From NCBI RefSeq assembly GCF_002937115.1, contig NZ_NHRY01000234.1, positions 1 through 55,278 on the forward strand: a stretch of DNA of 55,278 bases, written 5' to 3'. The translations under genes were made by a program, and so were the position numbers. This document shows positions 10,739-37,244 of this stretch, in pieces. The notes under the pieces are model-generated. The model searched no databases and was not told where the DNA came from. It saw nothing but the letters and a program-made list of their open reading frames with translations. Origin of the DNA: Rhodopila globiformis (lineage in GTDB: Bacteria; Pseudomonadota; Alphaproteobacteria; Acetobacterales; Acetobacteraceae). How positions within the stretch are numbered: the first letter of the stretch is position 1; the number at the start of each line of letters is the position of its first letter.

Positions 10739-13700
10739 TCACGCCATCGCCATCAGGCTGGCATTGCCACCGGCAGCGGCCGTATTCGTGGCAATCGAAA
10801 CCTCCTGCACCAAACGCGCCAGGTCGTAGGCATCCCCCGGCACCGTGCTGTCCGGACGCGCTGCCTGCGCCTGTACGATCGTCCCGTCCCGCGCCGCCAG
10901 CCGGCGGGTCAGTCCGCGCAAGGCATCCACCTCCCCTTCGAACAGCACCGCCTCCAGTCCGGCGGCATCACCAATCGCACCGACGATCGCCACCTCTCGT
11001 GCGATCTCTGGCGGCAGCCCCGCCAGCGCCGTCCGTGCGGCATTCCCTTCCTCGACCAGGGCCTGATTGCCGGTCGCGAGGATCGCGCCGAGCTGCACCA
11101 GCAACCCGGAGTCCGTCCCGGCAACCGCCGCGACGCCACCGCGCGGGCGCAGCGTATAGACGTTCCGCTCACCGACCGGCCCCGGCAGCGCCTCCGAGGC
11201 GCCAACCATCGAGTATGCCAGGAACCCGGCACACTGCTCCGCCTCCCGCACCCACCCCTGCGTGCGAAGCCACGCCACGTAGGCCTGTGCGGCCGCCGGG
11301 ACATCGGCCGCAACGCCCGGCAGTGCCGTCCGCGGCGGAACTGCCAGCAGACGCCCGAGATACAACGGACCGCCAGCCTTGGGCCCCGTGCCCGACAGGC
11401 CGCGGCCACCGAACGGCTGCACGCCGACGACGGCGCCGATAATGTTGCGGTTCACGTAGATATTGCCCGCCCGGATGCCGCCGGTCACCCGCGCAATCGT
11501 CTCGTCGATGCGGCTGTGCAGGCCGAATGTCAGGCCATAGCCCGAGCGGTTGATGTCGGTGACCAGGCGATCGAGATCCTCCCGGGCATAGCGCAGCACA
11601 TGCAGCACCGGGCCGAACACCTCCCGTTCCACATCGGCGATGCAGTCGATCTCGATGATCGTGGGCGCGACGAAGGTGCCATGCGCCAGCCCCGGCGGCA
11701 GGGCCGCTTCTGCCACGGCGTGACCGCGGGCGCGCATGGCCGCGATGTGCCCGCGGATGCTGTCTTGCGCCTCGGCGGTGATCACCGGGCCGACGTCCAC
11801 GGACAGCCGATCGGGACACCCGACCGCGATTTCCCGCAGCGCGCCCTTCAGCATCGCCAGCGTCCGATCGGCGATGTCCTGCTGCAGGCACAGGATGCGC
11901 AGGGCCGAGCATCGCTGTCCGGCGGAATCGAAGGCCGAGACGATGACATCGCCGACCACCTGTTCCGCCAGCGCCGAACTGTCCACGATCATCGCGTTCA
12001 GCCCCCCGGTCTCGGCGACCAGCGGCACCGGCTGGCCGGACGGGGTCAGGCGGCCCGCCAACTGTCTCTGGATCAGCCGCGCGACGGCGGTCGAGCCGGT
12101 GAACATCACGCCGTTCACCCGCGCGTCCGCGACCACCGCGGCGCCGACGGATCCGTCGCCCGGCAGAAGATGCAGCACATCGTGCGGCACGCCGGCCGCG
12201 TGCAGCAGGCGCACCGCCTCGGCGGCGATCAGCGGCGTTTCCTCCGCCGGCTTGGCCAGCACCGGATTGCCAGCGGCGAGCGCCGCGGCCACTTGGCCGG
12301 TAAAGATCGCCAGCGGAAAATTCCACGGCGAGATGCAGCCGATCGGCCCGAGCGGCGCCGGCCGATCGGCCGCGATGCGCAGGATCTCGGCGGCGTAGTA
12401 GCGCAGGAAATCCACCGCCTCGCGCACCTCGGCGACCGCGCCGGGCAGGGACTTGCCGGCCTCGCGGACGATCAGGCCGATCAGCACCGGCATGCGGGCT
12501 TCCATCGTGTCGGCGGCCTGGCGCAGGACGGCGGCCCGCTGCCCGGCGGGGGTTGCGGCCCAGGCCGGGGCGGCGCCGGCGGCAGCGCCCAGCGCCGCCT
12601 CGATGTCAGCCGGCCCGGCCTCCCGCACCGTGCCGACCACATCCCGGTTGTCGGCCGGATTGCGGACCGGACGTGGCGGGTTGCCGCCGCCGGCGGGCTG
12701 CGCGGTCCAGCGGATGCGGACGCTCTCGGTAACGCCGGCAGCGAGCGCGGCGAGGCTGTTCTCGTCCGCCAGGTCCAGGCCCGCCGCGTTCGGACGCCCG
12801 GCGCCATACAGGTGGCGCGGCAGGGTGATCCGCTCGTTTGGCGTGAAGCCGGGATTGACGGCATGCGCAGCGGGGGCTGCGGGGGCAGCGGATCGGTGGA
12901 GCACAGCCCCCGCCCCCTCGTCATGGCCGGGCCCCTCGTCATGGCCGGGCGTGTCCCGGCCATCTACCCCCCGCCGCCGAAGCGCGGATGGCCGGGACAC
13001 GCCCGGCCACGACGAGGGATTGGGGGCGTCCGCCCAATCCCCCTCCAAGCCCGCCTTATCCTCACTCCCCCTATCCTCGTAAGCACAGGGATCGGCGGCG
13101 CGGAGACGGGCAACCGGATCGGCCACCAGGTCGTCGATGGAGACATCCGGATTGGCAATGCGGTTGACGAACGAGGCGTTGGCCCCGTTCTCCAGCAGCC
13201 GCCGCACGAGATAAGCCAGCAGCGTCTCATGCGTACCGACCGGCGCATAGATACGGCACGGGCGGTTCAGCGTGCCCGGGCCGACAACCGCGTCGTACAG
13301 CGGCTCGCCCATGCCGTGCAGGCACTGGAACTCGTACTGGCCACGATGAAACGCCGGACCGGCCATCTGCATGACCGCCGCCAGCGTTTGCGCGTTGTGC
13401 GTGGCGAACTGCGGGAACACCGCATCCGGCACGGCCAGCAGCTTGCGGGCGCAGGCGAGGTAGCAGACGTCCGTATGCAGCTTGCGGGTGAACACCGGGA
13501 AGTCTGCCATCCCGTCCACCTGGGCGCGCTTGATCTCGGCGTCCCAGTAGGCGCCCTTGACCAGCCGGACCATGATGCGCCGCCCGGCCCGGCGCGCCAG
13601 GTCAACCAGCCAGTCGATCACGAACGGGCACCGCTTGCCGTAGGCCTGGACCACGAACCCCATGCCGTCCCACCCCGCCAGCGCCGGGTCCAGCGCCAGC

Positions 13701-14698
13701 GCCTCCAGCAGATCCAGCGACAGCTCCAGCCGATCGGCTTCCTCGGCGTCGATGTTGAGGCCGATGTCGTGGTCCCGGGCGAGAGTGGCCAGGTGCCGCA
13801 GCCGCGGCAGCAACTCGGCCATCACCCGCTCGCGCTGGCTGCGGCTGTAGCGCGGGTGCAGGGCGGAGAGCTTGATGGAGATGCCCGGTCCTTCGTAGAT
13901 GCCGCGTCCGGCGCCGGCGCGGCCGATGGCGTGGATCGCCTCCTCGTAGCTGGCGAAGTAGCGCGCCGCATCCCCGGCGGTGGCCGCGGCCTCGCCGAGC
14001 ATGTCGTAGGAATGGGTGTATCCCTGGGTTTCCCGCCTACGGGCATTGGCCAGCGCCTCGGTGATCGTCTGGCCGGCGACGAACTGCTCGCCCAGCAGAC
14101 GCATCGCGATGTCCATGCCCTTGCGGATCAGCGGCTCGCCGCCGCGCGCGACCAGGCTGGTCAGGGAGGCGGACAGGCTGGTCTCGTTCGTCGTGGCGGT
14201 CAGCTTGCCGGTGACCACCAGGCCCCAGGTCGCGGCGTTGACGAACAGCGAGGGGCTGTGGCCGGCATGGGCGCGCCAGTTGCCGGTGGCGGTCTTGTCC
14301 CGGATCAGCGCGTCGCGGGTCGGGTCGTCCGGGATGCGCAGCAGCGCCTCGGCCAGGCACATCAGTGCGACGCCCTCCTGCGACGACAGCGCATATTCGT
14401 GCATCAGCGCTTCCACGCCGCCGCGGCGCTGCTGGGCGCGCAGGCGGGTGACAAGGGCGCGGGCCCGGTCCTGGGCCTGCGCGGCGTCCGGCGCGGACAG
14501 GCTTGCCAGGTCGAGCAGCGGCGGCAGGCAATCCGCTTCAGGGCGGCGGCAGGCGGCCATGATGGCGGCCCGCAGCGGCGTCTGCGGCCGCAGGCCGGCC
14601 ATGAAGGCCGCGAACGGCGCTTCCGGTTCCGGCGGAGAATGGGTGGCGGCTGGTGGTGCAAGGGTCATGTCGGCGTTCCGGTTCCCGCTGGCAGCCAT
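10739..14698 (-). CDS. putA: Bifunctional proline dehydrogenase / L-glutamate-gamma-semialdehyde dehydrogenase PutA
   Basis: PutA oxidises proline to P5C (FAD) and then glutamate semialdehyde to glutamate (NAD+). With the start at 14698 (GAGGAA 4 bp upstream) the protein has 1319 residues; 14668 is an alternative. There is no N-terminal ribbon-helix-helix segment, so it should not be a repressor. The PRODH barrel spans about residues 170-500 (GPGISIKLSALHPRYSRSQR, NIDAEEADRLELSLDLLEAL). The P5CDH half has GCISPWNFPLAIFTGQVAAA, MFTGSTAVARLIQRQL, ETGGLNAMIVDSSA and FDSAGQRCSALRILCLQQ with the catalytic Cys. A C-terminal domain (RGGVAAVAGTDSGLLVQLGA) is present. Residues about 561-588, in the linker between the halves, are encoded by an inserted palindromic repeat, apparently without breaking the frame. 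Monocistronic. Confidence 0.93.
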   Translation of the reverse strand: MAASGNRNADMTLAPPAATHSPPEPEAPFAAFMAGLRPQTPLRAAIMAACRRPEADCLPPLLDLASLSAPDAAQAQDRARALVTRLRAQQRRGGVEALMHEYALSSQEGVALMCLAEALLRIPDDPTRDALIRDKTATGNWRAHAGHSPSLFVNAATWGLVVTGKLTATTNETSLSASLTSLVARGGEPLIRKGMDIAMRLLGEQFVAGQTITEALANARRRETQGYTHSYDMLGEAAATAGDAARYFASYEEAIHAIGRAGAGRGIYEGPGISIKLSALHPRYSRSQRERVMAELLPRLRHLATLARDHDIGLNIDAEEADRLELSLDLLEALALDPALAGWDGMGFVVQAYGKRCPFVIDWLVDLARRAGRRIMVRLVKGAYWDAEIKRAQVDGMADFPVFTRKLHTDVCYLACARKLLAVPDAVFPQFATHNAQTLAAVMQMAGPAFHRGQYEFQCLHGMGEPLYDAVVGPGTLNRPCRIYAPVGTHETLLAYLVRRLLENGANASFVNRIANPDVSIDDLVADPVARLRAADPCAYEDRGSEDKAGLEGDWADAPNPSSWPGVSRPSALRRRGVDGRDTPGHDEGPGHDEGAGAVLHRSAAPAAPAAHAVNPGFTPNERITLPRHLYGAGRPNAAGLDLADENSLAALAAGVTESVRIRWTAQPAGGGNPPRPVRNPADNRDVVGTVREAGPADIEAALGAAAGAAPAWAATPAGQRAAVLRQAADTMEARMPVLIGLIVREAGKSLPGAVAEVREAVDFLRYYAAEILRIAADRPAPLGPIGCISPWNFPLAIFTGQVAAALAAGNPVLAKPAEETPLIAAEAVRLLHAAGVPHDVLHLLPGDGSVGAAVVADARVNGVMFTGSTAVARLIQRQLAGRLTPSGQPVPLVAETGGLNAMIVDSSALAEQVVGDVIVSAFDSAGQRCSALRILCLQQDIADRTLAMLKGALREIAVGCPDRLSVDVGPVITAEAQDSIRGHIAAMRARGHAVAEAALPPGLAHGTFVAPTIIEIDCIADVEREVFGPVLHVLRYAREDLDRLVTDINRSGYGLTFGLHSRIDETIARVTGGIRAGNIYVNRNIIGAVVGVQPFGGRGLSGTGPKAGGPLYLGRLLAVPPRTALPGVAADVPAAAQAYVAWLRTQGWVREAEQCAGFLAYSMVGASEALPGPVGERNVYTLRPRGGVAAVAGTDSGLLVQLGAILATGNQALVEEGNAARTALAGLPPEIAREVAIVGAIGDAAGLEAVLFEGEVDALRGLTRRLAARDGTIVQAQAARPDSTVPGDAYDLARLVQEVSIATNTAAAGGNASLMAMA
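12937..13014. repeat. Type 1 palindromic repeat inside putA
   Basis: The left arm CGTCATGGCCGGGCGTGTCC (12937 on) and right arm GGACACGCCCGGCCACGACG (ending 13014) are nearly exact inverted repeats. They flank a short spacer containing CCGCCGCCGAAGCGCGGATGG. An extra copy of the left-arm start (CTCGTCATGGCCGGGC) sits at 12917-12932. The same arms occur in intergenic DNA at 16027 and 37167. Read in the putA frame the element encodes PSSWPGVSRPSALRRRGVDG and then RDTPGHDEG, without stop. Confidence 0.85.
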
Positions 14699-14954
14699 GC
14701 GTTCCTCGAAGCGGAAATGGTGACGAAGGCCGGCCGGGGCCAGATACCAGGCCCGCGGAGCACGGGCCGGGCTCCTTTGGCCTGGCCGGACGACAGTCGC
14801 CATGGGAGGCACGGACGTCGGAAACGGCGCGCCGCGGCCGTGCCTCTTACCGTCATGGCCCGGCACGTTCCCCCAGCGTCATGGTCCGGCTTGTCCGCAT
14901 ACGCGCTACAGCAGACCGCAGGTCGGTTGGGACGCGCAGGTGGCCTGTCCTCAT

Positions 14955-15034
14955 CGTCATGGCCCGGCTTGTCCGGGCCACCTGTCGCGGCACAAGTGCT
15001 GGAATAGGTGGCCCGGACAAGCTGGGCCATGACG
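14955..15034. repeat. Type 1 palindromic repeat, variant
   Basis: CGTCATGGCCCGGCTTGTCC on the left is mirrored by GGACAAGCTGGGCCATGACG on the right around a spacer that itself contains CACCTGTCGCGG and AATAGGTG. A degenerate half copy lies near 14878-14898. Upstream, the stretch at 14905-14942 has an inverted relative at 15958-15992 (core GGTCGGTTGGGACG), so the repeat unit extends beyond the palindrome. Confidence 0.75.
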
Positions 15035-16026: not shown

Positions 16027-16093
16027 CGTCATGGCCGGGCGTGTCCCGGCCATCTGCCCCCGCCGTCGAAGCGCGGATGGCCGGGATACGCCC
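16027..16093. repeat. Type 1 palindromic repeat, right end decayed
   Basis: The left arm CGTCATGGCCGGGCGTGTCC is identical to the copy inside putA; the spacer has CCGCCGTCGAAGCGCGGATGG, also as in putA. The right arm degenerates after GGCCGGGATACGCCC. Confidence 0.75.
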
Positions 16094-16195
16094 TACCGCA
16101 TGCACAGATCTCGGAAACGATGCCCCACCTGCGCCGAGCGAGGCCATGACAATGCACTCATCCGCCCGCCCGGACGGCACTTTGTACCCCGGTAT

Positions 16196-37166: not shown

Positions 37167-37244
37167 CGTCATGGCCGGGCGTGTCCCGGCCAGCTGCGCA
37201 CAGGCGGCGGGGGGTGGATGGCCGGGACACGCCCGGCCATGACG
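37167..37244. repeat. Type 1 palindromic repeat
   Basis: CGTCATGGCCGGGCGTGTCC at the left and GGACACGCCCGGCCATGACG at the right are perfect inverted repeats, the best-preserved type 1 copy in the window. It lies 150 bp after the histidine kinase stop and could act as a bidirectional terminator. Confidence 0.88.

Follow-up and report, generated by a model that had tools for sequence, protein, structure and literature searches.

How does a mobile palindrome come to lie inside the reading frame of a conserved gene, and what does it contribute to the protein? The putA gene of Rhodopila globiformis raises this question. It is located in the window analysed here, by which we mean the whole stretch of 55,278 nucleotides, where its open reading frame spans 10739..14866 on the reverse strand. 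The listed start is the GTG at 14866, and the true start probably lies further inside. The gene encodes a PRODH N-terminal domain, a DNA-binding-type domain, the PRODH domain (residues 272-569 in a domain search) and the P5CDH (aldehyde dehydrogenase) domain (residues 733-1167). According to the original prediction, a repeat occupies 12937..13014 within putA without a stop or frameshift. Both the position and the intact frame hold: the element is a 78-bp dimer, and the open reading frame of 1375 codons runs uninterrupted through the palindrome, with no stop, no frameshift and both catalytic domains present.

The element is a type 1 inverted dimer of a CGTC-tagged REP, equivalent to 26 codons. 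Its two 28-bp arms, the left at 12937..12964 on the forward strand and the right at 12987..13014 on the reverse strand, carry the CGTC tag outermost, are separated by a 22-bp spacer and together deviate from the arm pattern at a single position. Both arms thus begin with CGTC, as CGTC-tagged REPs do, and the arm, read from the sequence as ATGGCCGGG - CGTGT - CCCGGCCAT, forms a 9-bp stem with a 5-nt loop, in line with the AT-first stem of 8-9 bp and loop of 4-5 nt of such repeats. The coding-strand RNA of the dimer is predicted to fold at -76.8 kcal/mol (z -11.8). The arms are shared with two intergenic copies in the window, as had been claimed: 37167..37244 is a complete 78-bp type 1 dimer, and 16027..16054 (forward strand) is a perfect type 1 arm whose partner is chimeric. 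In this chimera, at 16027-16100, a GCCCTAC...GCATGCACAG end replaces the partner arm, and the same end recurs at other copies. A type 2 dimer of 80 bp lies at 14955..15034, upstream of putA.

How much of PutA is foreign only becomes clear from its homologues. We compared the linker equivalent to residues 565-695 in 88 homologues, comprising eight relatives and the best 80 of 589 loci from named species. In all 88, it measures 45-57 residues, most commonly 52 (41 of the 88), versus 131 here, so the insert amounts to 79 extra residues, or 74-86 depending on which of these homologues is used. The best solved relative, the bifunctional PutA 5kf6, has 6 residues facing 85 of this PutA. The prediction was therefore right about the linker between PRODH and P5CDH, and right that an alignment would show an insertion there in this genome only, as none of the 88 homologues carries it; its estimate of about 28 added residues was too low, since the dimer alone encodes 26 and the whole insert, at about 79, is nearly three times larger. 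The comparison confirms, at the level of sequence, that the putA linker holds a repeat-derived, in-frame insertion.

The whole insert extends over 12842..13087 on the reverse strand (residues about 594-675), with edges good to a few codons. In coding order, it begins with about 16 residues (13015..13062, reverse strand) that resemble M1, a module preceding many intergenic copies, followed by the 26 residues of the dimer, 6 residues of a duplication and the rest, mostly 20-25 alanine- and proline-rich residues at the far end without an assigned origin. The partial left-arm duplicate described earlier is present: 18 bp at the tag end are repeated in tandem without loss of the frame, with the first copy at 12929-12946 and its second at 12911..12928 (reverse strand). 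The flank probably derives from part of M1: its score of 46 against the module was matched by only 2 of 10,000 random genomic 90-mers away from repeats, with the qualification that 35 of 330 other arm flanks also attain it and that the profile E-values are weak (0.05-0.33). The 87 bp beside the palindrome matched their own place alone in the genome, which excludes an exact dispersed repeat as their source. No close empty putA site was available for recognizing a target-site duplication, the nearest orthologues being 76% identical or less. In an AlphaFold2 model of residues 84-1180 (36 aligned sequences, mean pLDDT 77, pTM 0.80), pLDDT falls below 50 at residues 594-668, corresponding to the insert. 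Because other stretches of the model also fall below 50, for example model positions 109-182 and 1059-1082, the prediction is at most suggestive of a disordered stretch between PRODH and P5CDH.

The putA copy belongs to a large family. Allowing up to two mismatches, the arm pattern occurs at 523 sites of the 7.25-Mb genome (266 forward, 257 reverse) and at none for the reversed control, so that the matches are not due to chance. Among 59 genomes, 31 carry it, our own included, yet these represent only 3 of the 27 genera; same-genus genomes (G001-G032) have between 0 and about 150 such sites each. For a closer view, we took 1.58 Mb as a sample, made up of the window and 80 further stretches of this genome: a first set of 40 chosen around known copies and a second set of 40 that fills those contigs irrespective of copies. 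The sample contains 160 dimers (117 in the first set and 43 in the second): 104 of type 1, with 63 at 78 bp, and 56 of type 2, with 45 at 80 bp. Set against 186 single-arm matches, many of which carry 4-6 errors, the family exists mostly as inverted dimers, and 132 of the 160 dimers, the set used for the flank tests, have CGTC at both ends.

The conserved unit extends past the palindrome, about 20 bp beyond the tags. Outside the tags of type 1 dimers, information is 0.66-0.68 bits per position over the first ten bases, 0.47-0.48 over the next ten and 0.16-0.18 thereafter, and the two ends differ from each other. We also considered complementary flanks as a sign of palindrome correction and rejected the idea: left and right flanks are no more alike than shuffled pairs, and less alike at several positions because the two ends differ, while one type 2 position goes the opposite way (more alike than shuffled, z 3.1). 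The flanks at L080, L081, L085, L090, L094 and other loci show that dimers sit inside larger modules that recur; one of these modules, M1, itself starts with half a REP arm.

How often do such dimers enter genes? Excluding five that lie too near a stretch end, 155 of the 160 dimers could be assessed, and 6 of them lie in frame within conserved genes: putA, cobN, alr, addB, hypF and an mbhD-mnhB fusion. All six come from stretches chosen around known copies, with none among the 43 dimers of the other stretches. Since an estimated 71% of the first set and 67% of the second is coding, six in-gene cases among 160 dimers, against about 70% coding sequence, means that dimers are strongly depleted in genes. 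In putA, addB, hypF and mbhD-mnhB, the dimer falls between domain matches, and in alr and cobN within one domain model. The hypF dimer was found by a scan of open reading frames, the coding-model pass having flagged just its neighbouring single arm. We left out of this count single-arm matches in coding frames, mostly with 4-6 errors, and two dimers: L108:6967-7044, in a long open reading frame with no family match and a low coding score, and L100:3210-3287, which sits where two genes meet. At the latter, a type 1 dimer, the upstream frame continues through the repeat, extending its product at the C-terminus, and the following frame starts just past it, encoding what is presumably a protein resembling adenosylcobinamide kinase.

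Each of the six in-gene dimers measures 78 bp, whereas the length is a multiple of three in only 60 of the 154 others (Fisher p 0.004), a difference that partly mirrors the recognition of in-gene cases by their shared open frame. The dimers of putA, cobN, addB and mbhD-mnhB encode one peptide type, SWPG...PGHD, and those of hypF and alr another, RHGRACPGH...GTRPAMT. A plasmid survey with the encoded peptide as the query, possibly too short for this purpose, gave no match. The original prediction had further proposed that elements staying open in a given frame could be a way for repeats to spread into proteins. This part found no support: of the 624 frames of type 1 dimers, 386 (62%) are open, whereas the share is 69% in 78-mers drawn at random from the genome and 78% in Markov shuffles. 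With the depletion in genes, this speaks against a design for open frames. None of the six in-gene copies uses the poorly open third frame, an outcome that the frame counts would produce in about 28% of cases.

The other occupied genes allow the same sites to be compared in ten relatives. For alr, nine relatives were matched; the eight with both parts listed are all 30-40 residues shorter at the site, and an alignment of all nine contains no insert. For cobN, five were matched, of which four orthologues with both parts are about 60-66 residues shorter and the fifth is a distant match. The linker between the helicase and nuclease parts of addB, matched in all ten (relatives' loci include L265, L266, L273-L275), shows a more varied picture. 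It carries a dimer in our genome (L103:9772-9849), and G008 and G010 have one of type 2 there, likewise in this frame; in G025, the contigs end inside a dimer, and G026 has a diverged version. The linker is empty in G006, G032, G001 and G019 and, by match coordinates, in G034 and G033. The addB dimers of our genome, G008 and G010 all measure 78 bp, ours being the sole one of that length among the 56 type 2 dimers of the sample. Because other type 2 dimers near the fetched G025 genes are also 78 bp long, this size fits an older inherited size class or selection for frame.

The linker of hypF, which was matched in five of the ten relatives (relatives' loci L269, L276-L279), also varies. In our genome (L080:3379-3527), it holds a type 1 dimer plus one more arm. 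Those of G006 and G025 hold another arm class, in or beside which the contig ends, and that of G008 yet another, GGCGGGC...GCCCGCC, placed after two extra tag copies, which brings the CGTCATGGC tags of this gene to three, spaced 27 bp apart. In G019, no repeat was seen in the linker, and the G010 matches are about 40% identical. Finding different repeats in one linker suggests repeated insertion or replacement at the addB and hypF sites. As a tentative idea for the genus as a whole, which we hold possible rather than probable, the linkers of AddB, HypF and perhaps PutA could be recurrent landing places, where CGTC-REP dimers insert, get lost and are replaced, providing a bacterium of large genome size with a continuing source of new disordered linker peptides; whatever moves these dimers would then not be a known RAYT.

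For putA itself, we consider it highly probable that, in this lineage, the linker between PRODH and P5CDH received a CGTC-REP dimer, probably together with a portion of a larger module from its flank. Later, 18 bp of the tag end would have been duplicated in tandem, keeping the frame, and the extra residues, about 79, are most likely a tolerated disordered loop. The gene would have stayed readable because the 78-bp dimer has no stop in the frame into which it fell, and the insert would have been kept because both catalytic modules are untouched. Dimers landing in genes would mostly be purged, leaving as survivors frame-keeping 78-bp copies, four of six of them between domains. That the insert is translated and neutral, and that the events took this order, we infer from the sequence. 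Could putA instead be on its way out, the insertion being tolerated since the enzyme is no longer needed? Fused PutA is indeed patchy within the genus, with a match at E 1e-100 or better in only 4 of 32 relatives (G001-G032), and the strong mRNA hairpin could reduce expression. Against decay, the 1375 codons are free of stops and frameshifts, the GQRCSA motif, which we take to be the active-site motif, is intact, and the identity to five outgroups (0.55-0.69) is similar to the values for four relatives. As PutA looks intact by these measures, we regard loss of the gene as very unlikely.

We give an equally low chance to the opposite reading, a strict domestication in which the insert was taken into service for a new function or regulation. 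Repeat-derived addB and hypF linkers do persist in several species, as domestication would allow, yet the putA insert occurs in our genome alone when compared with the eight relatives and the best 80 of 589 loci, its dimer is nearly unchanged from the repeat consensus, the stretch is very low in predicted order, and the same peptide type appears in different unrelated proteins. Least probable of all is an assembly error at the repeat. The contigs of relatives do end in or beside such repeats (addB in G025, hypF in G006 and G025), but both sides of the insert are orthologous putA parts in order and in frame, and the DNA next to the dimer has no second copy in the genome, a combination that a false join would rarely yield.

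The insertion makes putA a clean case, outside Rickettsia, of a mobile palindrome turned into part of a protein, set against 88 insert-free homologues (eight relatives and the best 80 of 589 loci). Since the addB and hypF linkers are found empty, occupied, diverged or with another repeat class, they make it testable how repeats become protein segments, and they also let one ask whether such linkers are preferred targets or merely tolerant sites.

Finally, we would like to place these repeats among known systems. REPINs and BIMEs are inverted dimers moved by RAYT. The repeats described here share with them the inverted dimers and the mosaics with larger modules; they differ in their CGTC tag and in the lack of a RAYT (Y1) gene, as the Y1 transposase profile PF01797 has no match in the genome (98.55% complete), whereas 5 of 14 control genomes match. 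Judged on the same profile, no dedicated transposase accompanies the family.

This agrees with the CGTC REPs of Di Nocera et al. (2013, PMC3733652), which form a CGTC-tagged superfamily with intragenic members and without a dedicated transposase. The tag is given there as CGTC, TGTC or CCTC at one end of each arm. The likeness covers the outermost CGTC tags, the 9-bp stem, the 5-nt loop, the inverted dimers, the alphaproteobacterial host, the in-frame copies within genes and the missing transposase, and, of the four published families, the stem and loop lengths point to CGTC-3 or CGTC-4. The superfamily also includes the Rickettsia elements RPE-4 and RPE-6 (PMC3733652), in keeping with the earlier suggestion that the putA copy resembles Rickettsia palindromic elements. 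Like RPE-4, RPE-6 and RPE-1, our repeats are palindromes in frame in many proteins, a likeness drawn from descriptions of the elements. As with RPEs, the in-frame palindrome is absent from orthologues (all 88, from eight relatives and the best 80 of 589 loci). The host here differs in having a 7.25-Mb genome of about 68% GC.

According to PMC3733652, intragenic CGTC dimers add 20-30 residues each and clusters add 43-82 residues in Thauera and R. conorii; many intragenic targets are DNA repair genes, and the insertions are argued to be tolerated in linkers. Literature searches on intragenic REPs with linkers, on REPs with putA and on palindromes in Rhodopila brought up no paper on this case. 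The putA event is of a known kind, and what is new is the well-resolved comparison with insert-free homologues. Three differences from the published picture stand out. Conservation continues about 20 bp past the tags, whereas in the published description the repeat stops at the tag. The insert in putA is about three times as long as its dimer. Finally, related species have different dimers in one and the same interdomain linker, for which PMC3733652 reports one like case, recB of two Xanthomonas species, with insertions at roughly one position. This hint that linkers are occupied recurrently is the newest element here.
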